Source: Ignavibacteria bacterium (GTDB lineage: Bacteria > Bacteroidota > Ignavibacteria > UBA10030 > SZUA-254). Taken from it: a stretch of 44,784 nt of DNA. This document shows, in pieces, positions 142 through 28,085 of this stretch (positions are counted from its first letter, which is position 1; the number at the start of each line of letters is the position of its first letter). The DNA lies in NCBI GenBank assembly GCA_016178625.1, contig JACOSX010000106.1:1-44784 (forward strand), given 5' to 3'. Under the pieces are notes generated by a model. That model saw nothing but the letters and a program-made list of their open reading frames with translations. It did not search any database and was not told where the DNA came from. A program made the translations under genes and the position numbers.

Positions 142-952
142 AACTGTTTTTAAATTTCCCAAGAACACTTTCGTGGTCGGAGTTGAACGAGTTATTATTA
201 AGTATTATGTACAAGATTATCTCAATATCGAGATTGGAAGGCATCATACACCGATCGGTTATTGGAACACCGCATACCATCATGGATTTGTATTACAGCC
301 TACGATCAGTAGGCCCTTATTGTTTGCCTTTGATGAAGCCGGCGGATTTTTGCCTATTCATACCGTTGGATTATTGCTTTCAGGTTCCAACATTACTGAA
401 CTTAATATCGGATATAGTTTCATGATCGGTGATGGTATTGGCTCAACGTCTATTTCAGAAAATGACAATGCCAAATCTTATACGCTAAGATTAAACACAG
501 CGCCTATCACTGGACTTGATGTGGGGGCTTCGGGATACCTCGACTATATTTCATCAGGGGTCAAAAATTTGCGAGACCAGCCACTCACGTCGCAAGTCAA
601 ACAGCAGCTTATCTCAGGATATATGGTTTATCTCCGGCGACCCTACGAATTGATGGGTGAATATCTTTATGGCGCGAATTCAACAGATAGTGTTGGTATC
701 AAGCACACGAAAGCTTCCTATGTTCATGCCGGATATCGCTTTGAGAACTTCATACCATATGCGCGTTACGAGCAAGTGAACTTTGAAGATGGCGATCCTT
801 ACTTTAATCCAAACAATGTGAAATTATTCCTTGCGGGGTTGCGTTATGAATTCAGTTCGTTATCTGTACTCAAGCTGGAGTATCGTAATGTGAAAACATC
901 GAGTGACGGTACTCGGAACGAAATAGTGTTTCAATTTGCAATTGGTTTCTAA
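142..952 (+). pseudogene. Porin-like outer-membrane beta-barrel protein, 5' end lost to an IS
   Basis: The frame is open from the IS boundary; the first possible start is GTG at 173, giving 259 residues, but no ribosome site or signal peptide is present, so the true N-terminus is missing. The visible part looks like the C-terminal half to two thirds of a porin-type barrel: alternating polar/aromatic strands (for example YLNIEIGRHHTPIGYWNTAY, residues about 16-35) and a terminal phenylalanine in FQFAIGF, the usual C-terminal signal for outer-membrane insertion. Homologous small-molecule porins in this lineage often precede a periplasmic binding-like protein and a sensor kinase, as here. It is followed by 969-1445 with only 16 bases between. 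Probably non-functional unless the upstream part is re-supplied; the family call is moderate because only part is visible. Confidence 0.65.
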
Positions 953-968
953 CCGGAAAGGATTAATC

Positions 969-1445
969 ATGCAACCGAGCAGGAAACTTTACGATTTTTT
1001 CCACCTCAATTTAATGAAGGTTGTAGGGGTAGCTATGCTTTTTCTTTTCTTCAGTGCTGCCTCACAAGCACAACTCCTCACGGCCGTTGCGAACCCTCAC
1101 GGTGCACCTTCTTCAATGACATTTTCCGAGCTGCAACGGATTTTCGGAGCCGATAGACAACGATGGGAAGATGGAACGAAAATCACTATCGCCTTGATGA
1201 AAACCTCTACAGAAGCAGGTGCCAAAACCGCTGCAAAAGTGTATGAGATGGAACCCGATGAATTGTATAAGTTTTGGATCAGCCTTGTCTTTCGCGGGAA
1301 AACAACAACGCCGAAATTTTTTGGCGATGTGGACGAGTTAAAGAAATTTGTTGATAAAACATCAGGCGCAATTGGAATCGTCCCATCGAGTGATAACGAT
1401 GATTCCTTAAAGCACATTTTGATCGACAAAAAAAAATCCTGGTAG
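969..1445 (+). CDS. Small exported phosphate-binding-protein (PstS/PBP-like) domain protein
   Basis: ATG at 969 is chosen because AAAGGA lies seven bases upstream; an in-frame TTG at 936 inside the preceding gene is less likely. The 158-residue product begins with a basic segment and a hydrophobic stretch (KVVGVAMLFLFFSAASQAQ) that fits a Sec signal peptide cleaved near residue 35. The mature part resembles one lobe of PstS-type binding proteins: MTFSELQRIFGADRQRWEDG and the later KFWISLVFRGKT match the pattern seen in PBP-like domain proteins of this type. Full PstS proteins are about twice as long, so this is a half-size form. It sits between a porin remnant and a hybrid kinase, suggesting a periplasmic ligand-binding or accessory role for that sensor. 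Ligand unknown; phosphate is only one option. Confidence 0.65.
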   Translation: MQPSRKLYDFFHLNLMKVVGVAMLFLFFSAASQAQLLTAVANPHGAPSSMTFSELQRIFGADRQRWEDGTKITIALMKTSTEAGAKTAAKVYEMEPDELYKFWISLVFRGKTTTPKFFGDVDELKKFVDKTSGAIGIVPSSDNDDSLKHILIDKKKSW

Positions 1446-1518: not shown

Positions 1519-4500
1519 ATGCTAGTCTACTTTAAAAAATCGGTTAAACGAAAACTTGTTTTAGTGATTGTACCATTCATTGTCGTCATCGGTGCGTTTA
1601 TTTGGTTGTATTACCCCGCTATGCAAGAGCGTCAGATTCGAGATTCCCTTGGCAAATATATAGGTGCAATGGCGGAAATGATTGCATTTACATCGGGAAA
1701 TGCCATCGGTGAGGGAAATATTGAAGGCATCGTTAACACCCTCGAATGGGCAAAGCAAGATCCCAACGTTATTTACATCGGCGTCATTGACCCAAGCGCT
1801 AACGTCATGGCGGAGTATAATCCTCAACATCAAATATTTAACTATCACGATCTGGTCAAGCTTTCAGTCGTCAAAGAAGAACATGAACTCCTTTTTTCAA
1901 CGAGAGAAATTATTCACAACAACCAGCACTATGGCACTATCATTCTGGGCTACTGGTTACATGAGACCAAATCACGAATTGCTCAACACCGTAACTTCTC
2001 TCTTATCATTCTTTCCTTGTTGTTCGCAATCGGAACTATAGTCATACTCTTCATCGGCAAGATTATAGTGAACCCTATCGAAGATCTTAATCGGGCAGCT
2101 TTGAGAGTGGGACAGGGCGATATGGGCTTCTCTGTCCCTGTCACCACGAGCGATGAGGTTGCCACCCTTGCTACGTCCTTTAACAAGATGGTCAACGATA
2201 TTAAAACTTCCCTCGAAGCGTTACGAGCTTCGGAAACACAATATCGAAATCTTGTAGAGACAATGCATGAATTTGTCGCTGAAATGAGTCTGGAGGGAAT
2301 ATTTACGTTCGTCAATAAACCTTTTGCTGAAATGACTGGTTACACGACCAAAGAACTCGTTGGCACCAACTTTTTCTCGTATGTCCATCCTGACGATCTC
2401 TCCTCAACTTCCACTCATTGCGCGCAGTTAGTAAACGAAGGTAAGCCGGTCCGGAACTGTGAATATCGTTTCCGGCGCAAGGATGGTAATTATCTAGATC
2501 TGGTTACCAGTGGGGATCCCATCTGCGACATCGATGGAAAAATGAAAACCATCTTACAAGTTTCCTTTGATATCACCGAGCGCAAGCAGGCGGAGGAGAA
2601 GTTACGATATACGGAGGGGCTATATCGTGGAGCAATCACGGCAGGAGAGGCGGTCCCTTATCGGCATGACTACGCAACCAATTCTTACCCATTCATGGGA
2701 CAAGGCATCCTACAATTGACCGGCTACAAACCAGAGGAAATGACACCGGCACGTTGGCGCCAGATCATTGAGGAATCCATCATTTTCGGCGACGCAGGCA
2801 ACTTAGATTGGGAAGAAGCGGTTCACAAGACCCGCGCAGGTGAATTCCAGCGTTGGAGAAGTGACAATCTCATCCGTACTCGCGATGGACAGCAACGCTG
2901 GATTGCCGATGCCTCCGTAGAAATCCGGGATGAGCAGGGAAGATCCACTGGTTCGGTGGGTATTCTCATAGATATCACCGAGCGCAAGCGGGAGGAAGCT
3001 TTACGCGCTGGCCAAAGCCGCGTCCTTGAAATGATCGCGAGAAACGCGCCGCTCGAAGATGTACTTACAACACTGATGCACTTCATCGAATCTCAGTCCA
3101 AGGGGATGCTCTGTTCTGTCCTTCTCCTCGAAGAGGATGGACAGCACGTGCGCCACGGTGGGGTCTCCAGCCTTCCTGAAGCCTACACCAAGGCAATCGA
3201 TGGCGCCACCATCGGTCCGCAGGCTGGCTCGTGCGGCACAGCCATGTACCGAAGAGAACCTGTCATTGTCACAGATATTTCCCAGGATCCGCTCTGGACA
3301 GATTACCGCATTCTGGCTGCAACGTACGGACTCCGCGCTTGCTGGTCGACCCCGATTATCTTACACCAAGGAAAGGTGCTGGGCTCGTTCGCCATGTATT
3401 ACCGAGAGGTGCGGAGCCCAAGTCCAGCGGAGAAACAACTCATCGACATCGCCACCCGCATCGCTGCTATCGCGATCGAACGCAAGCGGGCGGAAGAAGC
3501 TATCAGGCGGTCGGAAGAGAACTACCGCAATCTATTTGAAGAATCAAAGGATGTCATCTTTACCAGCACGATTGAAGGCCGATTCATCGATATTAATCCC
3601 GCTGGTGTGCAGCTTTTCGGATATTCTTCCAAAGAAGAACTCTTGCGCATCGATATTGCTAAAGATCTTTATTCTGATCCTAAGGAAAGAGAAACCTTTC
3701 GACGCGTATTGGAGCGGAATGCCTTTGTGAAAGATTATGAATTGACGATAAAAAGGAGAGACGGACAGAAGGTGATTGTGCTTTCCACAGCCAACGCCGT
3801 GCATAACGACAAGGGTAATGTCGTAGCCTACCGTGGGATTATGCGAGATATAACGGAGCGGAAGCAACTTGAAAAGCAGCTCATTCAGGCACAAAAGATG
3901 GAAAGCCTTGGTACGCTCGCAGGCGGTATTGCCCATGACTTTAATAATCTTCTGGGAATAATCTTAGGATATGCCTCTATGCTCGAACGTTCTCATGGTC
4001 AAGGAGACATCTTCACTCGGGGTATTGGGGCAATCAACAAAGCGGTGGAGCGGGGAGCCGGATTGGTGCAACAGCTCCTTATGTTCGCGCGCAAGTCCGA
4101 CGCCACATTCGGCTCAGTGAAAGTTAATGACACGGTGAACGAAGTTATAAAAATGTTGGGCGAAACTTTCCCAAAAACGATTTCCATTATGCCGCAACTT
4201 GAGCAAGACCTTCCCCCTATTATTGCTGATCACAATCAGCTCCACCAGGTTCTGATCAATCTTTGTGTCAACGCGCGTGACTCAATGCAGAAGGGTGGGG
4301 AGCTATCTATTACTACATGTCTTGCAACCGGCAAGACTGTTCGTATGAAATTCCCTCAAGCGAATGGCTCAGAATATGTGGTGATTCATGTTTCCGACAC
4401 GGGGACAGGTATGGATGAAGCGACAAGAAATCGTATCTTCGAGCCCTTTTTCACTACCAAGGACATAGGAAAAGGAACTGGTTTAGGGCTTGCCTTAGTA

Positions 4501-5022
4501 TACGGGATTCTCGAAAACCACAGGGGCTTCATAGATGTCGCAAGTGAAATTGGACACGGGACAACCTTTTCCGTTTATTTCCCTGCTCGGCAACATTTAC
4601 TCGATGATCTTCATCAGAAAAAAGGACCAATCGCCGAACCATTGGGTGGTACAGAAACGATTCTACTGGTGGAGGACGAACACGAGTTAATGGAGTTGGC
4701 AAGCGCCTTTCTAAGTGCAAAAGGCTATCATGTACTTACGGCAAATGATGGTGAAGAAGCAGTGAATCTCTTTTCGCATCACCATACTCAGGTTGCATTG
4801 GTCATAACCGACATGGGGCTTCCCAAGCTATCGGGAGACGATGTATTTCTCAAGCTAAAAGAGATCAGTCCAAACGTCAAGGTTATCGTTGCAAGTGGAT
4901 TCTGGGATCCTAAAACAAAATCTGAGATGTTCAAAGCGGGAGCGAAGGAGTTCGTGCAAAAGCCTTATAATCTGAACGAGCTATCGAGAAAGATCCGTGA
5001 AGTAATCGAGATCAAGAATTGA
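1519..5022 (+). CDS. Hybrid sensor histidine kinase (CHASE8-like, HAMP, PAS, PAS, GAF, PAS, HisKA, HATPase, receiver)
   Basis: A 1167-residue membrane sensor kinase. One helix near residues 12-32 and a second near 158-182 bracket a periplasmic domain of CHASE8-like size, followed by HAMP (about 180-232), PAS/PAC (237-362), a second PAS (about 365-490, ending in a DITERK junction like the others), GAF (495-655), a third PAS (663-790), the dimerisation domain with phospho-accepting His806 in GGIAHDFNNLL, the ATPase domain (N box around Asn914-Asn918, DTGTG at 960), and a C-terminal receiver with Asp1053, phosphoacceptor Asp1098 and Lys1148. No DNA-binding output domain is attached, so the signal must pass to a partner or end in the receiver. 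The start codon at 1519 has GAAGG very close upstream, so initiation may be weak. It follows the binding-protein-like gene by 73 bases and likely forms a unit with it. Confidence 0.88.
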   Translation: MLVYFKKSVKRKLVLVIVPFIVVIGAFIWLYYPAMQERQIRDSLGKYIGAMAEMIAFTSGNAIGEGNIEGIVNTLEWAKQDPNVIYIGVIDPSANVMAEYNPQHQIFNYHDLVKLSVVKEEHELLFSTREIIHNNQHYGTIILGYWLHETKSRIAQHRNFSLIILSLLFAIGTIVILFIGKIIVNPIEDLNRAALRVGQGDMGFSVPVTTSDEVATLATSFNKMVNDIKTSLEALRASETQYRNLVETMHEFVAEMSLEGIFTFVNKPFAEMTGYTTKELVGTNFFSYVHPDDLSSTSTHCAQLVNEGKPVRNCEYRFRRKDGNYLDLVTSGDPICDIDGKMKTILQVSFDITERKQAEEKLRYTEGLYRGAITAGEAVPYRHDYATNSYPFMGQGILQLTGYKPEEMTPARWRQIIEESIIFGDAGNLDWEEAVHKTRAGEFQRWRSDNLIRTRDGQQRWIADASVEIRDEQGRSTGSVGILIDITERKREEALRAGQSRVLEMIARNAPLEDVLTTLMHFIESQSKGMLCSVLLLEEDGQHVRHGGVSSLPEAYTKAIDGATIGPQAGSCGTAMYRREPVIVTDISQDPLWTDYRILAATYGLRACWSTPIILHQGKVLGSFAMYYREVRSPSPAEKQLIDIATRIAAIAIERKRAEEAIRRSEENYRNLFEESKDVIFTSTIEGRFIDINPAGVQLFGYSSKEELLRIDIAKDLYSDPKERETFRRVLERNAFVKDYELTIKRRDGQKVIVLSTANAVHNDKGNVVAYRGIMRDITERKQLEKQLIQAQKMESLGTLAGGIAHDFNNLLGIILGYASMLERSHGQGDIFTRGIGAINKAVERGAGLVQQLLMFARKSDATFGSVKVNDTVNEVIKMLGETFPKTISIMPQLEQDLPPIIADHNQLHQVLINLCVNARDSMQKGGELSITTCLATGKTVRMKFPQANGSEYVVIHVSDTGTGMDEATRNRIFEPFFTTKDIGKGTGLGLALVYGILENHRGFIDVASEIGHGTTFSVYFPARQHLLDDLHQKKGPIAEPLGGTETILLVEDEHELMELASAFLSAKGYHVLTANDGEEAVNLFSHHHTQVALVITDMGLPKLSGDDVFLKLKEISPNVKVIVASGFWDPKTKSEMFKAGAKEFVQKPYNLNELSRKIREVIEIKN

Positions 5023-17756: not shown

Positions 17757-18848
17757 TTATGTATTCATTCTTGCGAGCTGGATAAGTGCCCGAGGAATTT
17801 CTCCAAGAGGCAGAATAATATCTGTTAATCTGTTATCGACTGCAACTTTTGGCATTCCATAAACAACACAACTTTCCTTGTCCTGAGCAATAACGTAACC
17901 ATTTCTTTGCTTGATCATTTTCAATCCTTGTAATCCATCTTTCCCCATCCCCGTCATGATGACACCGATGATCGGTCCTTGGAAACTCTGAGCTGCTGAT
18001 TCCATCGCAATATCCACCGATGGCCTATACATCGTATTCAGCGGATCAACTGATACCCTCGTTTTTACACACGTGTTTTCTTGTGACAACGTTAGATGTT
18101 GACCACCAGGAGCAATGAGAACAAGTCCTGGTTCAATCGTATCACCATCTTCCGCTTCTCGTACCCGAACTTGACTGAGATTATTGAGCCGATCAGCTAA
18201 GGACTTTGTGAACCGCGGAGGCATATGTTGGACGATGATTATCCCAAGGGGAAAATCCGACGGTAATTGTGGAATCGTTTGCAAGAGGGCAAACGGGCCA
18301 CCCGTTGAAATACCTATAACGACCGCTTTAAACTCAGTCTTTGGCAGCCTCAAGTTCCAATTATTGTCAACTATCCGTCTCTGGCTTTCTTGATGCAGGG
18401 GGATTTTAGTTGAGCTTCCATTAAGACGTCGGAATTGACGAGAACGGTTCTTTGTAATTTGTTTTACTTTAGAGATGAGTTCTTCTTTGATCTTCACAAT
18501 ATCCAGCGAAACGTACGAGAGTTCCTTTGGAATAAAATCTACAGCACCAAGATTGAGCGCATCGAGCGTAGTTTGCGATCCCTCTGTTGTCAAGGAACTT
18601 ACGACAAGCACCGGTAAAGGCATGTCTTTCATGATGGTACCAAGCGCTGTTAGGCCGTCCATTCCCGGCATTTCTAGATCAAGCGTCACAAGATCCGGCT
18701 TAAACCGCTGAATTTTTTCGATTCCATCTCTACCATCACGCGCAGTCGCAACTACCTGAATATCTGGGTCAGATTGGAGCATCATAGAAAGTGCCCTTCT
18801 CATGAATGCCGAATCATCAATGATGACAATCTTAATAGTTTTGTTCAA
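17757..18848 (-). CDS. cheB: Chemotaxis protein-glutamate methylesterase/deamidase
   Basis: A 363-residue CheB. The N-terminal receiver (1-125) has Asp11-Asp12 and phosphoacceptor Asp57 (LVTLDLEMPGMDGL). After a linker (130-170) the C-terminal methylesterase has the triad Ser181 (GISTGGP), His208 (IVQHMP) and Asp304 (TGMGKDG). It removes methyl groups from chemoreceptor glutamates when phosphorylated by CheA, reversing CheR (22310-23191). It follows cheA by 45 bases. Confidence 0.96.
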   Translation of the reverse strand: MNKTIKIVIIDDSAFMRRALSMMLQSDPDIQVVATARDGRDGIEKIQRFKPDLVTLDLEMPGMDGLTALGTIMKDMPLPVLVVSSLTTEGSQTTLDALNLGAVDFIPKELSYVSLDIVKIKEELISKVKQITKNRSRQFRRLNGSSTKIPLHQESQRRIVDNNWNLRLPKTEFKAVVIGISTGGPFALLQTIPQLPSDFPLGIIIVQHMPPRFTKSLADRLNNLSQVRVREAEDGDTIEPGLVLIAPGGQHLTLSQENTCVKTRVSVDPLNTMYRPSVDIAMESAAQSFQGPIIGVIMTGMGKDGLQGLKMIKQRNGYVIAQDKESCVVYGMPKVAVDNRLTDIILPLGEIPRALIQLARMNT

Positions 18849-18893
18849 GTAATTGATTCTCCTCTTACATAAGAAATTTTCAGAACAAGCATT

Positions 18894-20606
18894 TCATGAA
18901 CGACGGGCATAGAGTTCCATAAATTGACCCACATCAATAATCATCATCACCTTTCCGTCACCCAGAATCGTAGAGCCGCTAATGCCTGGAACGTTTCCCA
19001 AATATCGGCCGAGCGATCTGATCACCAATTCCTTTTGTCCAAGAAGTGAATCGACAACTATTCCGAGTCGTTGATCTGCTAAGCCTGTAACGACAATGTA
19101 TCTCCATTGCGGCTCTGTGCCGTTGACATTCACTCCCAGCACTTGTGAGATTTGTGCAAGAGGAAGAATCATATTCCTGAGACGGTAGACTTCTCTGCCG
19201 TCGATTGTATCGATTTCGTTTGCCTCAACCCGTACGACTTCGAGGACCGAGCCTATTGGAATGGAGAAAATTTCTTCACCAGCTTTGACAAGAAGCCCCT
19301 GAATAACTGCCAGTGTCAACGGTAGTTTAAGAACGAACTTGGATCCAACACCGATTTCAGACTCAATATCAATAATGCCTTTAAGCTTGGATATATTTGT
19401 TCGCACAACATCCAGCCCGACCCCTCGACCAGAGACATGAGTCACTTGCTCAGCTGTAGTGAAGCCCGGTTCAAAAATAAGATTGAACGCGTCACGCTTG
19501 GTCATTTCACGAGCACGAGCTTCACTAATTAATCCCTTCTTTAGTGCAGCTTGCGTGAGCTTTTCCGGATCCATCCCCCGTCCATCATCTTGTATGGTAA
19601 TGACAATCTGATTTCCTTCCCGCTCGACCCGTACAATGATAGTCCCCTTAGAAGCTTTACCGACCTTTTGTCGTTCCTCCGGTAGTTCTATTCCATGATC
19701 TGCGGCGTTGCGAAGAATATGGATTAACGGATCGTTTAGCTCATCAATGATAAATTTGTCGATCTCCGTATCTTCTCCGTAGATTTGAAGCTCAATATTC
19801 TTGGACATTTCTCTGCTCACGTCCCTTATCAAACGCGGAAGCCTGTTCACAAGCTTCTCAATCGGGATCATCCGTGTTTTCAGCACCGCCATCTGAAGTT
19901 CTGTCGTGATAAAATCGATCTGCGAGCTTGTTTCTATGGCTTGTTCCGCGAGTGGAAAATCATCGTACTCCTCATTCATTTTTTGGGTCACCATCCCAAG
20001 CCGGTTTCGAGCTAATACCAATTCACCTACGAGGTTCATTAACTCATTGATACGGCCAACATCAACGCGGATGACGGAATCCGTTGTCTTTGACGTTACA
20101 GGGGTAGAGGAAGAGGATGTTTGATCCTTGTCTGGCGATAGAACGGGATGAGATGCATTCGGTGTTTTTGTTGAAACCTTGGCAATCGTCCGGAGTTGTT
20201 TAAGAACTTTTGACAGATCTATTGGTTCGCTGTTTTGAGTTTGGATTCGTTCAAACAGAATTTTTAAGAAGTCATAAGTCCCCAAGAGCACATCGACCAT
20301 GTCGGTAGTAAGCTTGAGATCTCCCTTGCGAAGTTTGTTCAGCACATCCTCCAACGCATGGGCAAGTTCCGTCATCTGATCAAAGCCAAGGAATGAAGAA
20401 GTTCCTTTGATTGTATGCACCGCCCGAAAGACCTTTTGATGCAGCTCTTTATCGGTAGGCCGGTTTTCCAGATCCAGTAAATCTTGACCAAGTTGGTCAA
20501 GCAGCTCTCGATTTTCAACGATATAGCATTCGACTAACTCTTCAAGCTCATTCTTGACCTCACCTGTTCGGCCTTTCGGTTTGTTGTCTTGATCAGTCTG
20601 GGTCAT
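18894..20606 (-). CDS. cheA: Chemotaxis histidine kinase CheA, without a P2 domain
   Basis: A 570-residue soluble kinase that phosphorylates CheY and CheB. P1/Hpt is at 18-125 with His64 (RAVHTIKGTSSFLGF). A linker rich in Ser, Thr and Pro (about 140-178) leads straight to the P3 dimerisation helices (180-250). P4 carries the N box (HILRNAADHG, 297-306), G1 (DDGRGMD, 340-346) and G2 (GRGVGLDV, 393-400). P5 is CheW-like (about 430-570). The CheY/CheB-docking P2 domain of the E. coli protein is absent, so transfer to the two CheYs must be direct. There is one Hpt and no receiver, so this is not a ChpA-type hybrid. Confidence 0.96.
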   Translation of the reverse strand: MTQTDQDNKPKGRTGEVKNELEELVECYIVENRELLDQLGQDLLDLENRPTDKELHQKVFRAVHTIKGTSSFLGFDQMTELAHALEDVLNKLRKGDLKLTTDMVDVLLGTYDFLKILFERIQTQNSEPIDLSKVLKQLRTIAKVSTKTPNASHPVLSPDKDQTSSSSTPVTSKTTDSVIRVDVGRINELMNLVGELVLARNRLGMVTQKMNEEYDDFPLAEQAIETSSQIDFITTELQMAVLKTRMIPIEKLVNRLPRLIRDVSREMSKNIELQIYGEDTEIDKFIIDELNDPLIHILRNAADHGIELPEERQKVGKASKGTIIVRVEREGNQIVITIQDDGRGMDPEKLTQAALKKGLISEARAREMTKRDAFNLIFEPGFTTAEQVTHVSGRGVGLDVVRTNISKLKGIIDIESEIGVGSKFVLKLPLTLAVIQGLLVKAGEEIFSIPIGSVLEVVRVEANEIDTIDGREVYRLRNMILPLAQISQVLGVNVNGTEPQWRYIVVTGLADQRLGIVVDSLLGQKELVIRSLGRYLGNVPGISGSTILGDGKVMMIIDVGQFMELYARRS

Positions 20607-20681
20607 TCAGCCACGTTTGATAATAAATCAACAAGAAAATAATGCATTAAAATTAGTTCTGTCTGTTCAGTCTACACTTAA

Positions 20682-21413
20682 TCACTTTTTACCTTGCTTT
20701 CGCTTCCATTCGTCGATGATCTGATCAACAACATCTTGCTCTGCCTTCAGCGCAGATGTGCTCGCTTCAATATCTTGCACTGATCCGGGACCTGTTGTCC
20801 CCCCGATTCGTTTCTTTAAGTCGAAATGTTTAAGAATAAGGATCAATTGTTGCTGAATAGAAGAGACTAAATCTTTCGCAGTGCTGACTTGTTGCGAGGT
20901 AATATCTTGTACTTGCAATGCCACTGTAATTTTTAGAAAATCGTCTGTAGTCTCGTCGAGGTACTTCCCAATCGCGGCGATCGAACCCGCTTCATCTGAT
21001 AACTGCAAATACTTATCCAAGAGAATAGAAAGTGTAGAAATTTCAGGTGTCACCCATGATGATGAACCGGCCGATTTCAATCGCTCGGAGATTTGACGAA
21101 GAAGATCTTGTTGATAATCACTGCCAACCTTCAGTTTATTGAGAATGCTTTTCGTGACCTCAATTCGCTTGCTCAAGTTTTCAAGAATATTTAAGATTTC
21201 CATCGCCGCATATTCGGTCGCCTGATTAACATCCTCAAGGTCTACCGATGCCCTAGGGATTTTGGTTGAACATTCCTCCAGGGCGCTCTTGACATTGCCG
21301 AGGAGCGGGATCACACGCTCCAGCATCTGCGCAAAGCTCTCAATGACTCCGGCATCTAGGGGAATTGTGTTTTCAGCAGTGGAATCACCTGATGGGATGA
21401 AATGATTCTCCAT
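20682..21413 (-). CDS. cheZ: CheZ-like CheY-P phosphatase
   Basis: A 243-residue, mostly helical protein. The segment ALQVQDITSQQV matches the CheZ active-site helix (Asp-x-x-x-Gln), here Asp170 and Gln174; the glutamine orients water for attack on phospho-Asp of CheY. The C-terminal tail after a flexible linker, QDVVDQIIDEW, resembles the short amphipathic helix by which CheZ captures CheY. The start is supported by GGAG upstream. Overall similarity to E. coli CheZ is low, so the call rests on these two motifs, the helical build and the position between cheY and cheA. Confidence 0.82.
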   Translation of the reverse strand: MENHFIPSGDSTAENTIPLDAGVIESFAQMLERVIPLLGNVKSALEECSTKIPRASVDLEDVNQATEYAAMEILNILENLSKRIEVTKSILNKLKVGSDYQQDLLRQISERLKSAGSSSWVTPEISTLSILLDKYLQLSDEAGSIAAIGKYLDETTDDFLKITVALQVQDITSQQVSTAKDLVSSIQQQLILILKHFDLKKRIGGTTGPGSVQDIEASTSALKAEQDVVDQIIDEWKRKQGKK

Positions 21414-21465
21414 TGGTTTATTCTCCTCGATGAATGATCATTCGTTAATGGATGATATGTTTCCG

Positions 21466-21858
21466 CTACGCATTCTTCGGTTCCGTGGATTTTAAAATTT
21501 TGTCAATTTTTTCCTTGAGACTCTGAGGTGAAAATGGCTTGAGAATATAATCGTTAATTTCCGCACCCCTCGCTTTGAGAACATCATCTTTACTTCCTCG
21601 AGTTGTTATCATCAAAATGGGCAGGCGTGAAAAGAAGCCATTTCCTCTTATCCATGAGGCGAGTTCTAAGCCAGTCATTTCTGGCATGTTCCAATCGGCG
21701 ATGACGAAGTCAGCACCTTTATCCAAGAGCTTTTGCAAAGCATCTTGTCCATCCTCCGCTTCTATGAGATTATCATAGCCAATGGCTCTGAGGGCGTTGA
21801 TAATAATCCGACGCATAGTGACTGAATCATCAACGACAAGAAATTTCGGTGATCCCAT
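21466..21858 (-). CDS. cheY: CheY-type single-domain response regulator (first)
   Basis: A 130-residue receiver with Asp10-Asp11, phosphoacceptor Asp55 (FVIADWNMPEMTGLEL) and Lys107 (YILKPF). The DWNMP block is the form seen in true chemotaxis CheY proteins, so it is the better candidate for the CheZ substrate. A good ribosome site (AAGGGA) precedes the ATG. It lies between the second CheY and the CheZ-like gene. Confidence 0.92.
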   Translation of the reverse strand: MGSPKFLVVDDSVTMRRIIINALRAIGYDNLIEAEDGQDALQKLLDKGADFVIADWNMPEMTGLELASWIRGNGFFSRLPILMITTRGSKDDVLKARGAEINDYILKPFSPQSLKEKIDKILKSTEPKNA

Positions 21859-21925
21859 AGTGGTTCCCTTTACGAGTTACTTACTTGAAAATCAACAAAT
21901 AGTTGGATTTCATGATACATATCAA

Positions 21926-22303
21926 TTACATATCAGAAGAGCTAATGCATTTTGAAACCTCATATTGGATTTTCTCAGGCTTGAAAGGTTTCATGACATA
22001 GGATGTAACGCCAAGCTTCACGCCAATCTCCTTATTTTTCTCTTCGGGAAGTGATGTCAGAACAATGACAGGCACATCCTGATACTCGGAATTCTCTCGC
22101 AATGCTTTGATGAATTCAAAGCCATCCATATTCGGCATATTAAGGTCAGTTATAACAAGGTCAACCTTTTTGGTTGGCAATTTCTCCAGGGCATCCATCC
22201 CGTCGCAGGCGGTCAACACATCAAATCCCTGCAAGGAGAGCGACACGGAGACAAACTTCCTTATTGTCGAAGAATCATCCACAACAAGAATGCTTTTGGC
22301 CAT
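21926..22303 (-). CDS. CheY-like single-domain response regulator (second)
   Basis: A 125-residue receiver with Asp9-Asp10, phosphoacceptor Asp53 (LVITDLNMPNMDGFEF) and Lys105 (YVMKPF). It is clearly diverged from its neighbour at 21466, so the two are not a recent duplication; one may act as a phosphate sink or drive a second output. It begins six bases after the cheR stop. Confidence 0.92.
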   Translation of the reverse strand: MAKSILVVDDSSTIRKFVSVSLSLQGFDVLTACDGMDALEKLPTKKVDLVITDLNMPNMDGFEFIKALRENSEYQDVPVIVLTSLPEEKNKEIGVKLGVTSYVMKPFKPEKIQYEVSKCISSSDM

Positions 22304-22309
22304 TGTTTT

Positions 22310-23191
22310 TTATTCCTTCACGTATGTAACTGTTTTGGGAAAATTGATTACCTTAAACGCTTTTGAAATCCCGTGCAATGTTTCAGCATAGCCGATAAAA
22401 AGATACCCTCCTCGACTCATGCTGTCATAAAGATTAGAAACCACCTGAATCTTTGACTTTGTGTCAAAATAAATGAGCACGTTGCAACAAAATATCAAAT
22501 CAAAGTTCCTCATCAGTCGCATCCCTGTTTGGTCGTAGAGATTCAGATACTCGAATCTCACAAGACGTTTCACCTCGTCGCGAATGCAATATCGAGAGTC
22601 TTGGCAGATGATATACTTATCAAGGTAGTACTTCGGCATATTCCGCACAGAATTTTCTCGATAGATCCCTTTCCTAGCAGTGTCCAAGATCAATAAACTA
22701 ATGTCTGTTCCCATTATCTCAATGTCAAGTCCGGGAAAACGTGGCTTCAGTTTTTCCAGATAGATCATCGCTAACGTGTACGCTTCCTCACCCGAAGAAC
22801 TCCCCGCACTCCATACGCGAATCTTGGCTCGTCCGTTGACCCGCCTCGCTTCAAGGATTTCTGCGATAAGTTTGTGTTCCAGTGCTTCAAGCTGGGCTGG
22901 GTTGCGAAAGAAACACGTTTCTTTAATCGTGATGGCATCGTACAGAAATTTACGTTCTTCATCTTTTTGGAGACCGAATTTCACCAGATGGCAGTAATCC
23001 TCGAAATTTTTCATGCCGAGAACTTGAAGCCGTTTGCCTATTCTTCCTTCAAGCAAATACTTCTTGTTATCCTGAAAATAGATTCCCGTTTGCTCGTAGA
23101 TGAAACTACGCAACAACTGGAAGGTCCCATCCGATAATTCAGGTTGTGGAACGAATAGGGATCTTTTTGTTATAATCGAGGGTGCTGACAA
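22310..23191 (-). CDS. cheR: Chemotaxis protein methyltransferase
   Basis: A 293-residue SAM-dependent enzyme that methylates chemoreceptor glutamates. The N-terminal helical domain (20-85) is followed by TIKETCFFRNP (88-98), the SAM loop VWSAGSSSGEEAYTLAM (127-142), GTDIS (161-165) and FCCNVLIYFD (234-243). No TPR tail. The only start that gives a full N-terminal domain is TTG at 23191, three bases after the HEAT-gene stop and without a clear ribosome site, so low-level, coupled initiation is likely. Confidence 0.94.
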   Translation of the reverse strand: MSAPSIITKRSLFVPQPELSDGTFQLLRSFIYEQTGIYFQDNKKYLLEGRIGKRLQVLGMKNFEDYCHLVKFGLQKDEERKFLYDAITIKETCFFRNPAQLEALEHKLIAEILEARRVNGRAKIRVWSAGSSSGEEAYTLAMIYLEKLKPRFPGLDIEIMGTDISLLILDTARKGIYRENSVRNMPKYYLDKYIICQDSRYCIRDEVKRLVRFEYLNLYDQTGMRLMRNFDLIFCCNVLIYFDTKSKIQVVSNLYDSMSRGGYLFIGYAETLHGISKAFKVINFPKTVTYVKE

Positions 23192-23194
23192 GCG

Positions 23195-24646
23195 CTAGAA
23201 TTTTTTATTGATCGATGTTTTAGGAGCGTCTGTTACCGGATCATCAGAATATCCGCTTGATTTGAGTGTTGTAGCTGCTACCTTGCGTACCATTTCATCA
23301 TCGTCCTCGAGATAGCGAGAAATGAAATCTATGGCGCGCCGATCGGCAATTGTTGCCAACAACTCAATGATATGAATACGCAACCAGCTATCAAGGTCGT
23401 TCATAACCTTTTCCAGAAATTCTACTGCCCTGTCACCATCGAGATGAAAGAGGGTATCGATAATGGCGCCACGGGTTTGATCGGCTGCATTGTTCCACTC
23501 CTGTGCGACGAGGTCAAATGCACGATGAAGGAGGTCGTCGGGAAGAGGAGCGGCAGAGCTGTTAGTGAGTCGCTGTTTGTACTTCTCCGCGAGTTTGCCT
23601 AACAGGATAATGGTTTCGTTTCTTGCAATTGTCCTTGTTCCTTCCAGCATCTCGGTGACAATGGAAAAGGATTCATCATCCTTTTCGATAATGGGAAAGA
23701 TAACCGAATCGAGTTCCTGAGAGAGTCCTAACGAATAGATTAATGTTCGGATCACTTCGGCATCGATACAATGTGCAAGCCCTTTCACTGCACTCATCTT
23801 CACATTCATGTCATCATGTTGAAGGGCATCGAGCAAATCATATTTAAGGCTCTCAGAAACTTGGAGAGAACTCTTGAGCCGTTCCGAGATCTGAATAATT
23901 GTATGCATGAGGGCCTTTCGTAGTCTGCCCTTGACATCATTGATGTGATTTTGAAGCACCTGTAAGGCATCTTTATTGCCACATTGACCCAACGCTTCGA
24001 TGATAGTAAACATGACTAAAGGATCTGCCGAGGGGTTACTAATATAATGCTTGAATTTCTGCAAAAGAAAGTCACAGGAATTTTTGCCGCCAATTTTCCC
24101 GAGGGCTTCAGCGACATAAGCTTGCGTAAACTCTTTCTCATCAAACATCGGGCAGAGAGAGGATGCCGCCTTGGGACTGCCTATGTTCCCCAACGCCTCA
24201 ACTGCAGACAGAACTACGTTTTCATCAGGATCTCGCAGCAGTGGTAAAATATGAGGTAGAAGCTTCTCGTTGCCAATCAATCCGAGAAGATCCAATGCAA
24301 ATTTTCGAACGTCATGGCTCGGGTCATTGATATACGGTAAGAGAGCCGGAACCGAGTCTTTTCCCCAATTCTCCAAGAGCTCTCGAGCAAGATTACGAGC
24401 CGTAATATTTTCATCGCGAATAAAGTCGGCGACAGCTTGCACGACACTTTCACAACCATGCACACAGAGGGAACGTGAAGCCGCATCTCTCACCCCTTTG
24501 TTCTCATCCCACAGAGCTGCTGTTAAAGCAGTTATCGCTTGCTCTTCATTACAATTCGCAAGCTCCTCAGCTGAGTGCCTTCGCACATCTGGGTTATTAT
24601 CTGTTAACAGATCAATGATCTGTTGCTTGATTGTTTCTGATGCCAT
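23195..24646 (-). CDS. HEAT-repeat protein within the chemosensory operon
   Basis: A 483-residue protein made of HEAT/PBS-lyase-like helical repeats, with the typical DxxxxVRxxAxxxL pattern (for example DVRKFALDLLGLIGNEKLL and DENVVLSAVEALGNIGSPKAA). No signal peptide or membrane helix, so it is cytoplasmic. I start at ATG 24646 (MASETIKQQ); a GTG at 24691 is possible but has no ribosome site. HEAT proteins are protein-interaction scaffolds. Its place between cheW and cheR suggests it binds array components or the methylation machinery, but nothing in the sequence shows its partner. No Cys/His pattern for a lyase was noted. Confidence 0.85.
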   Translation of the reverse strand: MASETIKQQIIDLLTDNNPDVRRHSAEELANCNEEQAITALTAALWDENKGVRDAASRSLCVHGCESVVQAVADFIRDENITARNLARELLENWGKDSVPALLPYINDPSHDVRKFALDLLGLIGNEKLLPHILPLLRDPDENVVLSAVEALGNIGSPKAASSLCPMFDEKEFTQAYVAEALGKIGGKNSCDFLLQKFKHYISNPSADPLVMFTIIEALGQCGNKDALQVLQNHINDVKGRLRKALMHTIIQISERLKSSLQVSESLKYDLLDALQHDDMNVKMSAVKGLAHCIDAEVIRTLIYSLGLSQELDSVIFPIIEKDDESFSIVTEMLEGTRTIARNETIILLGKLAEKYKQRLTNSSAAPLPDDLLHRAFDLVAQEWNNAADQTRGAIIDTLFHLDGDRAVEFLEKVMNDLDSWLRIHIIELLATIADRRAIDFISRYLEDDDEMVRKVAATTLKSSGYSDDPVTDAPKTSINKKF

Positions 24647-24710
24647 AATGTTTATTCCATATATTGACTGATGTTCATAGCTTGTCGGCACATTGGTTCG
24701 GATATTTGCT

Positions 24711-25214
24711 TCACACTACCGTTTTCAGCTGTTCTTTTTCGTTGGGCGACAATACTTTTTCCAGATCAAGGAGAATCAGCAACCTATCGTCCAGTTTTCC
24801 AACGGCGGTGATGTATTCTGCTGCGATGCTAGAAATAACACGGGGTGGTGGTTCCGTCACACTCTTTGGAATCCGCAGTACTTCTCTCACCGTGTCTACC
24901 ACAAATCCCACAACATGATCACCGACTTCAACAATAATGATGCGTGTGTCTTTATCATGCTTCTTTGTCGTTATCCCAAATCGCCGACGTAAATCGATGA
25001 TCGGGATGACTTTGCCGCGAAGATTAATAACACCTTCAACATATTCCGGTGCGTTAGGTACCCTCGTTATTTCCAATTTTCGGTTGATTTCTTGTACCTG
25101 GAGAATGTCCATACCAAACTCCTCGTCACCAACATTGAATGTCACGAGTTGGATGAGCTCCTGTGTTCGAGTTTGGTCCTTCAACTCACTCTTTATCGAT
25201 TTGATGACTGTCAT
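24711..25214 (-). CDS. cheW: Chemotaxis coupling protein
   Basis: A 167-residue single CheW domain that links receptors to CheA. The family block EGVINLRGKVIPIIDLRRRF (60-79) is intact, as are EEFGMDILQVQEI and LLILLDLEKVL. A ribosome site AAGGGA precedes the start. It follows the chemoreceptor gene by 34 bases. Confidence 0.96.
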   Translation of the reverse strand: MTVIKSIKSELKDQTRTQELIQLVTFNVGDEEFGMDILQVQEINRKLEITRVPNAPEYVEGVINLRGKVIPIIDLRRRFGITTKKHDKDTRIIIVEVGDHVVGFVVDTVREVLRIPKSVTEPPPRVISSIAAEYITAVGKLDDRLLILLDLEKVLSPNEKEQLKTVV

Positions 25215-25248: not shown

Positions 25249-26937
25249 CTAACGCTGCTGACCAGACTGATCACCCGAGCTCACTACTAAGGAACCATTT
25301 TCCCGCACAGCAAGGTTAGCTTCTGCTTCCTTCTGAATGGATAACTGTTGTGTTGATTGCTCCACACTCTGAGTAATGACGGTAGATTGGTCGGATGGTT
25401 GTTCATCCGAGAGTTTGAACTTGCCTACCAAACTCCGCAATTTCTCAGTCAGGCCGTTCAGGTTCTCTGCTGCTTGGGCAACCTGTTGAGTTCCTGCCGC
25501 AGTTTGACGGGTTACTGTACTGATTGCTTCTATATTTTTAGAAATCTGCTCGCTCGCACTGGATTGTTCCTCACTTGCGGCGGCAATTTGAGTTATCATA
25601 TCAGTCACTTTCTGAGATATCTTAACGATCTCGCGGAGAGCAGTACCTGCTTGATCTGTAAGCCGGAAACCATCATCAACTTCTTTTGTTCCATTCTGCA
25701 TTGAGCTGACAGCGCCGGCGGAGTCAGTCTGGATTCTCTTGATCATCCCTGCAATTTCTTTTGTTGCCTTCGTTGTTCGTTCAGCGAGTTTTCTCACTTC
25801 ATCTGCAACTACTGCAAATCCTCTTCCTTGTTCACCCGCCCTTGCTGCTTCAATGGCGGCATTCAAAGCGAGCAGATTCGTCTGATCTGCAATATCATCG
25901 ATGACCGAGATAATTTCACCAATATGATCGCTTGATTCACCGAGCGCTTGTACAGTTATTGCCGCTTTTCTTACTACCTCAGCAATGCGTTTCATGCCCA
26001 CAATAGTTTCTTGAACAACTTTACCACCTTCTTCCGCTGCCTTTTTTGCTTCGTTTGCAGTGTCGGCGGCGACATGAGCATTTTTTGAGTTTTCCAGAAT
26101 GGTCCCCGCCATCTCTTCAACAGCAGCTGCGACTTCAGCAGCTTGCTGAGCCTGCTCGTGAGATCCCGCCGCCATCTGAGCCGAATCAGCCATGATCTCT
26201 TCGGTGCGGTTGGAGACGTAGAGTGTTACTTCCTTCACTTCCCCCACCGCATGTCGTAAACGCTTAACCAAACTATTTAGGCCTTGGACGAGATGACCCA
26301 CTTCATCAGTCGTCTTTTGATGAAGTTCAATGGTCAGGTCTCCTGTAGAGACAAGGCGAATCCCATCCAAGAGTGGTTGAAGAATTCTCATAATGACACT
26401 GACGACTAATATTGCAGTGGCAGAAAACAACAAACACACCAGAAACGACCACAATAAGGCAGCACGAAGATCTGACTGTAATGCTTTCTTAGAAATGCCA
26501 ACCTTCACTACACCGATTTGTGAGTGCTCCTCCCCTCGGGTAAACACAGGCGCTTCAAACATCGCCAGACTATTCCCTTGGGTATCTTTTATCTCTTCTT
26601 GTTGGATCTCCGCCAAAGTAATATGTTTATCTTCTGCCGCTGAAACATCATCCCCTCTGCGGGCAATGACATTTCCTTGATCGTCAAAAAATTTAACAAA
26701 TCGAACCTCGGGATCCGTTAACGCTCCATCCATAATAGAGGCGAGTTGCGTTGAATCTTTTAAGAGCACACCAATACGACCATTCGTCGCCAAACTAGCA
26801 ACGACCGAATTACCTCTCTTTGTAAATTGTTTTTCAACGGAACTACCCATGATCAGATCATAGAGCACGGTGAGAGACACAGACAACACCACAATTATGC
26901 TCAGCGCAAGGATAAGGATTTTTGTTTTCAGTTTCAT
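25249..26937 (-). CDS. Methyl-accepting chemotaxis protein, CHASE8-like sensor
   Basis: A 562-residue transmembrane chemoreceptor. Helix 1 is at about 5-30 and helix 2 at 160-183; between them is a periplasmic domain of about 130 residues of CHASE8-like type ([25 protein letters not shown]). HAMP spans about 184-236 and the signalling coiled coil 250-510, with the conserved tip [19 protein letters not shown]. The tail after 515 is Gln/Ser-rich and lacks a CheR-tethering pentapeptide such as NWETF. It is the only receptor in the window and is 18 bases after a small exported binding-protein-like gene. Its sensor resembles that of the hybrid kinase at 1519. Confidence 0.94.
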
Positions 26938-26955: not shown

Positions 26956-27516
26956 TTATTGAAGAACATACGTGATTAAAGGACTAGGGTCTTCAGGAAT
27001 CTTTACCTTGAGAACGCCTGCGACCTTTTTATTAAGATGCACAACAATCTTATCAACCTCTTTCTGGACACTGCATAATGCGCCAGCTTGGATCAAGTGC
27101 ACATCTGGGACACACAGTCCAATGTTGTCTAACAAAGTATTTTCTCTAAGGAATTCAAATGCAGTTTCCAACATTATCTTATCATGCGCATCGGGAATCC
27201 AAATCATCCCGACCTTTTTTTCCGAAACCATTTTCTTGTAGAGCATACTGATCTCGCGCGACTCATTGGTCCTTACAAATACCATTTCGACCCCTTGGGC
27301 TAAACCGAGGCGAGTGATCTCCTGAAGATCTTTGTCTGTGAGGTTGCTTCCCATCACCCCCACAGTTTTCAATCCAGGTTTCAACATTTTCATGATGAAA
27401 ACATGTTGTCCCTTAGTGGCAGGTGATTGTGCGAAGAGAGTAGATACTCCCCATCCCACAACGACGAACCATCCAAGAAGCAGTTTCCGTTGATTCATGA
27501 AACACATTTTTTTCAT
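26956..27516 (-). CDS. Small exported ABC substrate-binding-like protein
   Basis: A 186-residue protein with a signal peptide (hydrophobic LLLGWFVVVGWGVSTLFAQ, cleavage near residue 30). The mature part resembles half of the ABC_sub_bind family (type I periplasmic binding fold): KTVGVMGSNLTDKDLQEI, VEMVFVRT and VGMIWIPD. It is too short to form both lobes with a normal transporter role, and no ABC permease or ATPase is nearby. As first gene of the chemosensory operon, 18 bases before the chemoreceptor, it may present a ligand to it. Start ATG 27516 has AGGGA upstream; a later ATG at 27498 is possible. Confidence 0.72.
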   Translation of the reverse strand: MKKMCFMNQRKLLLGWFVVVGWGVSTLFAQSPATKGQHVFIMKMLKPGLKTVGVMGSNLTDKDLQEITRLGLAQGVEMVFVRTNESREISMLYKKMVSEKKVGMIWIPDAHDKIMLETAFEFLRENTLLDNIGLCVPDVHLIQAGALCSVQKEVDKIVVHLNKKVAGVLKVKIPEDPSPLITYVLQ

Positions 27517-27779: not shown

Positions 27780-28085
27780 ATGATGGAAGAGAAACGCGAG
27801 CGAAGAAAATTCGACAAACAGTTCAAGCTCGAGGCTGTACGACTGGCAACCGAAGGAGGAAAGAAAATTGCAGAAGTGGCACGTGATCTGGGCATTGACG
27901 CCAATACGTTGTACCACTGGAAACGCGAGTTTGCTGACCACGGAACCGATGCATTCCCTGGAAATGGGCGTTTGCTGACACAAGAAGAAGAATTGCGCCG
28001 CCTAGAGCATGAGAATGCAACTCTGAGGGAAGAGAATACAGTTTTAAAAAAGGCGATGGGCTATCTCGCCAGAAGTGAGAAGTAA
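27780..28085 (+). CDS. IS3-family transposase OrfA
   Basis: A 101-residue OrfA with helix-turn-helix (RRKFDKQFKLEAVRLA; IAEVARDLGIDANTLYHWKR) and a C-terminal leucine zipper (EEELRRLEHENATLREEN) used for dimerisation, ending in the family's KKAMGYLAR. AGGAGA precedes two adjacent ATGs (27780, 27783). A slippery A-AAA-AAG lies at 28046-28052 in the right phase for a -1 shift into orfB, but the -1 frame meets TGA at 28076, so no OrfAB fusion can be made. Confidence 0.88.
   Translation: MMEEKRERRKFDKQFKLEAVRLATEGGKKIAEVARDLGIDANTLYHWKREFADHGTDAFPGNGRLLTQEEELRRLEHENATLREENTVLKKAMGYLARSEK

Follow-up and report, generated by a model that had tools for sequence, protein, structure and literature searches.

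In the window, a whole contig of 44,784 nucleotides from an Ignavibacteria bacterium, we found a gene for an exported half-size periplasmic binding protein (half-PBP), P1, lying between a porin-like gene and the gene of a membrane-bound hybrid histidine kinase. The same gene order recurs in several phyla. We propose, with about even confidence, that porin, periplasmic half-PBP, and inner membrane sensor make up a three-part envelope signaling relay resembling YfiB-YfiR-YfiN. A second half-PBP, P2, stands at the head of a chemotaxis operon in the same window. The features concerned are as follows.

173-952, plus strand: porin-like outer membrane beta-barrel gene with its 5' part missing or damaged, recognized by homology to porins upstream of other half-PBPs.
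969-1445, plus strand: half-PBP P1, 158 aa, exported single lobe (lobe 2) of a PstS-type binding protein, from the open reading frame (ORF), the profile of its relatives, and an AlphaFold model.
1519-5022, plus strand: membrane hybrid histidine kinase with the architecture TM, single-Cache, TM, HAMP, PAS, PAS, GAF, PAS, HisKA, HATPase, and receiver, from Pfam and a model of residues 1-177.
17757-25214, minus strand: chemotaxis genes following the P2-MCP pair, encoding CheW, a HEAT-repeat protein, CheR, two CheY-like receivers, a CheZ-like protein, CheA, and CheB, from Pfam.
25249-26937, minus strand: methyl-accepting chemotaxis protein (MCP) with a single-Cache (sCache_4/sCache_3_2) periplasmic domain, HAMP, and an MCP signaling domain, from Pfam.
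26956-27516, minus strand: half-PBP P2, an exported 186-aa single domain corresponding to the C-terminal lobe of TrpX-type binding proteins (RmSBP family), from NCBIfam and structure-profile matches.

The P1 ORF begins with an ATG at position 969, behind a ribosome-binding-like GGAAAGG, and its codons run over 969-1442 to a stop at 1443-1445. Spacers of 16 nt and 73 nt separate it from the porin-like ORF and the kinase gene, respectively. The protein starts with a SPI-type signal peptide (...FFSAASQAQ, followed by LL). By itself, the P1 sequence matched no Pfam or NCBIfam model, and a locus search with P1 alone as the query returned no related loci. PBP_like_2 (PF12849) is matched by 11 of 15 P1 relatives (11 of 16 members with P1 included), and a family profile of P1 and these 15 relatives matches PstS structures (1twy, E value of 3e-10, aligned residues 101-217). 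The AlphaFold model (pLDDT of 87) fits one PstS lobe only in a fold search (Z score of 14.2, 111 residues, 2.4 Å); matches were 4lat, 4exl, and 1twy over about 110 residues, and the model aligns to about residues 102-228 of the PstS chains. Lobe 1, and with it the two-lobed clamshell, is absent. The preliminary description of this DNA was thus right in calling P1 PstS-like and half size.

P1 shares the lobe 2 fold and sequence profile with PstS but differs in lobe 1, the phosphate motif, a sequence signature, and genomic context. The R..SGT phosphate-binding motif of PstS lobe 2 was found in 0 of 73 half-PBPs but in all 5 full-length PstS proteins from the same searches. Conversely, a W-x6-G-x4-P signature (W103, G110, and P115 in P1) is present in 65 of the 73 and in none of the 5 full-length proteins. 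With one lobe only and the phosphate motif gone, P1 cannot be an ordinary PstS, and it is not a phosphate transporter subunit. Because lobe 1 is absent, R..SGT is lost, and the new signature is gained, the P1 half-PBPs are a family of their own under selection and not a fragment. The 73 open frames are mostly about 135 to 160 aa long, with a signal peptide-like N terminus. That they are decayed, functionless pieces of PstS is hardly credible; the missing lobe and motif and the PstS-derived fold and family would agree with decay, but 73 open copies have kept both the signature and the gene order over several phyla, and conservation of the signature over such deep divergence points to purifying selection.

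The porin-like gene upstream of P1 was missed in the preliminary description. Its ORF (173-952) lacks a signal peptide and about 100 or more N-terminal residues; the first in-frame residues (VERVIIKYY...) align internally within homologous porins, and the frames before position 173 contain stops or no porin-like sequence. Since the window ends with the contig and the gene lies at that end, we regard the porin as cut or damaged. At P1-family loci, all 35 upstream candidates, including this ORF, fall into a single phmmer cluster.

We surveyed the neighborhoods of 45 P1-family members in Bacteroidota genomes, with flanks of up to 5 kb, counting as a sensor a histidine kinase, MCP, or SpoIIE-type protein with two transmembrane helices encoded by the next gene on the same strand. 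A sensor gene follows in 31 of the 45 loci, three of these calls (L059, L069, and L087) having been made by reading and not by script. A homologous porin gene precedes the half-PBP in 35 loci by script and in 39 when four porins recognized by reading (L056, L058, L063, and the joined L059) are added. As a control, we took 14 stretches from the same genome set, chosen regardless of content and holding 177 genes, of which 3 had a sensor downstream and 0 had such a porin upstream (Fisher P values of 1e-23 for the sensor and 4e-32 for the porin); the control was scored by script only, which tilts the comparison a little in favor of the cassettes, though the difference is too wide for this to matter. 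The pairing of P1-family half-PBPs with sensor and porin is not due to chance. In many loci the half-PBP and sensor genes overlap at start and stop or are 10 nt or less apart, and named contigs of Ignavibacteria, KSB1, and Calditrichota repeat the order of porin, half-PBP, and sensor. No sensor is adjacent in about a third of the P1-family loci, several of which consist of porin and half-PBP only (e.g., L068, L079, L093, L094, and L096).

The cassette extends to beta- and gammaproteobacterial plasmids and chromids, with hosts including Pseudoalteromonas, Caballeronia, Massilia, Ideonella, and Agarilytica. Among 14 members there, 13 have an adjacent porin-sized gene, some of these genes being without a phmmer match to the Bacteroidota porins, and in 10 an MCP or EAL sensor is encoded no more than two genes away. 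These members are mostly annotated as "phosphate ABC transporter substrate-binding protein," a misleading name for proteins from which half of the binding protein and the phosphate motif are gone. A porin-like gene on a Saccharobesus litoralis plasmid (L180, 2124-3386) is similar to a porin of a Bacteroidota cassette (L060; 9e-135), which suggests transfer between phyla. We found no earlier description of the porin, PstS lobe, and sensor cassette in the literature searched; subscription journals were largely uncovered, and the search is weak evidence that the P1-type cassette, unlike the P2-MCP link, is new.

Several individual loci deserve mention. The window's own genome holds a second porin, half-PBP, and kinase cassette (G000:C101, 9239-9670; L069, 3693-7112); an apparent frameshift divides its kinase behind the HAMP region and marks either a pseudogene or an assembly error. 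In L064 (G046, contig 122), a pst-like transporter operon with PhoU-like and ArsC-like genes is immediately followed by the half-PBP gene; no other locus seen had a phosphate/arsenate context. On two Alteromonas plasmids (L173 and L177), half-PBP and porin-sized genes stand beside type IV CRISPR csf genes. In L059 (223-2262), a single open frame runs through porin and half-PBP, which are separated by an internal signal peptide; we do not count this 679-aa frame (L059/L022) as evidence of a porin-PBP fusion, as the internal signal peptide is kept and read-through or sequence error is as likely.

The preliminary description had assigned CHASE8-like periplasmic domains to both sensors of the window. 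This label is insecure: with a score of 17.8, the kinase stays below the CHASE8 (PF17152) cutoff of 27, and the MCP has no match to CHASE8 but passes sCache_4 (27.2 versus 22.1); Escherichia coli DgcN, for comparison, passes CHASE8 clearly at 115.7. A model of kinase residues 1-177 (pLDDT of 82) has a single-Cache/PAS sensor fold, with a long N-terminal helix and a PAS-like sheet between two transmembrane helices, and its fold matches are WalK (Z score of 12), LapD (11.7), and CitA and LuxQ (about 10). The likeness noted between the two sensor domains is real: in an hhalign profile-profile comparison, the kinase-type sensors and the P2-linked MCP-type sensors matched in their periplasmic domains with 98.7% (E value of 4e-16, 173 columns), as against 0.7% and 44% for controls with four-helix-bundle sensors. 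By this profile match, the two domains are homologous.

Partners of the P1 family are not confined to this domain type. Of the 38 that could be classified, 26 are single-Cache proteins (CHASE8/sCache-like) and 12 are 4HB_MCP four-helix-bundle proteins, and among the proteobacterial partners there are some EAL proteins, which carry dCache or other domains. The earlier suggestion that half-size binding proteins serve CHASE8-type receptors therefore stands as to enrichment beside membrane sensors, which we see for two independent families, and fails as to CHASE8 specificity, which the four-helix-bundle partners rule out. Sensor type follows the half-PBP instead. Mapped on the half-PBP tree, single Cache versus four-helix bundle requires 3 changes, against a mean of about 11 after shuffling and with 0 of 500 shuffles as low, a comparison that leaves in the shared ancestry of whole cassettes. 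Paralogs within one genome (G338 and G217) are also split by sensor type. The half-PBP sequence thus tracks sensor type, which fits specific pairing, with shared inheritance of whole cassettes contributing.

P2 differs from P1 in origin and context. It lies 18 nt upstream of the MCP gene, matches a TrpX-like NCBIfam model (E value of 1e-5), and matches the RmSBP structure 5z6v at 9.5e-11 as a single sequence and at 3.8e-23 as a family profile. The preliminary description correctly saw in it a different half-size exported binding protein upstream of the MCP; its view of the two loci as one repeated arrangement did not survive, P1 and P2 being unrelated lobes (hhalign, 2%, which rules out a single family), P1 with a porin beside it and P2 at the head of a chemotaxis operon that has none. 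A relationship of P2 to YfiR was likewise rejected (0.4%, no sequence signal). RmSBP of Rhodothermus marinus is a single-domain binding protein noted near MCP genes, with its function left open (PMC10805632). P2 is a clear homolog of it (5z6v, 6k1y, and 8wgk); both lack the N-terminal lobe and both are encoded beside an MCP gene, whereas P1 is unrelated to RmSBP. The link of the P2 family with MCP genes is therefore already published (PMC10805632), and we add a count, an MCP gene directly downstream in 29 of 30 P2-family loci. Together with the P1 figures, this answers the genome survey that had been proposed: small binding proteins are enriched beside sensors. A transposase OrfA-like gene (HTH_Tnp_1, E value of 1e-21) lies at 27780-28085 on the plus strand, just upstream of the P2-MCP-che operon. 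The HEAT-repeat gene within the operon (23195-24691, minus strand) apparently has similar counterparts downstream of P2-MCP in L061 (1715-3184) and L103 (1717-3180).

The half-PBP could also be read as a periplasmic accessory of the porin, acting in gating, assembly, or solute capture, with the sensor controlling or responding to uptake without contact. Porin linkage in the survey is tighter than sensor linkage (35 to 39 versus 31 of 45), and the loci that hold only a porin and a half-PBP point the same way. On the other hand, sensor type follows the half-PBP tree, stop-start overlaps tie the half-PBP to the sensor in several loci, and the P2 family, though unrelated, has a sensor partner but no porin. 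We consider the accessory role unlikely, although it deserves to be kept in view.

Complete two-lobed binding proteins control membrane sensors in LuxP-LuxQ, NspS-MbaA, and TorT-TorS. These systems resemble the P1 cassette in combining a binding-protein fold with a sensor, but they are two-lobed and have no porin. A half-PBP might work as a small-molecule co-receptor of this kind, its one lobe presenting a ligand to the sensor as in LuxP-LuxQ or NspS-MbaA, independently of the porin. The resemblance of the single-Cache partners to LuxQ, CitA, and dCache chemoreceptor domains would suit such a role, as would the weak binding of Trp and vitamin B6 by YfiR (PMC4887326). One lobe by itself, however, is unable to close around a ligand, all 73 half-PBPs have lost the phosphate motif, and we identified no conserved replacement ligand motif, which leaves the co-receptor rather improbable.

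We favor the porin, half-PBP, and sensor relay because YfiBNR has the same three-layer plan. YfiR consists of a single binding-protein lobe (PMC4655355). It holds the CHASE8 sensor YfiN in a repressed state, and repression ends once YfiR is sequestered by the outer membrane lipoprotein YfiB (PMC4887326). Like the P1 cassette, YfiBNR spans three envelope layers with a single-lobe periplasmic protein and an inner membrane Cache/CHASE8 sensor encoded by adjacent genes (yfiR-dgcN-yfiB in E. coli). The observations on which the relay is based are the fold, the absence of lobe 1, the lost phosphate motif, the signature, the cross-phylum gene order, and the covariation with sensor type. In such a relay, the half-PBP would dock on its cognate sensor, at the periplasmic domain, and bias the sensor's signaling state, and the signal would be set by the neighboring porin. 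The porin might admit a solute for which the exposed cleft face of the lobe would be the binding site, or might itself sequester the half-PBP, as YfiB takes YfiR from YfiN; either sign of regulation may apply. P2 and its MCP would probably work in the same general mode for chemotaxis, with an unrelated lobe and no porin.

The two systems also differ. The lobe that YfiR resembles is the N-terminal one of a TrpX-type protein; P1 is lobe 2 of PstS. DUF4154 (PF13689), which E. coli YfiR matches at 5e-31, had no match in P1, P2, or their relatives; YfiR was missing among the P1 fold-search matches, which says nothing for or against a likeness. YfiBNR has GGDEF as its only output, and P1 cassettes have kinase, MCP, EAL, or SpoIIE outputs; the window sensor, with its subthreshold CHASE8 score and hybrid kinase output, is not a CHASE8-HAMP-GGDEF protein. 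Three points count against the relay: the outer membrane partners, in the window and in other cassettes, are porin-like beta-barrels and not OmpA/Pal lipoproteins like YfiB; the window porin is incomplete at the contig edge; and given the sensorless loci, porin and half-PBP may form the core, with the sensor as an optional neighbor.

More tentatively, these cassettes may represent widespread, unrecognized porin-coupled trans-envelope receptors, in which porin state or cargo would be passed through a half-PBP to interchangeable outputs (kinase, chemoreceptor, cyclic di-GMP enzyme, or phosphatase), with lobes recruited independently (PstS lobe 2, TrpX C-lobe, and YfiR N-lobe). If half-PBPs link porins to sensors, they would offer a direct handle on how inner membrane receptors learn of outer membrane events. 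The logic of YfiBNR would then extend from one cyclic di-GMP system to chemotaxis, two-component, and other outputs in several phyla, and the presence of the cassette in cultured, genetically tractable hosts makes the relay idea testable now.
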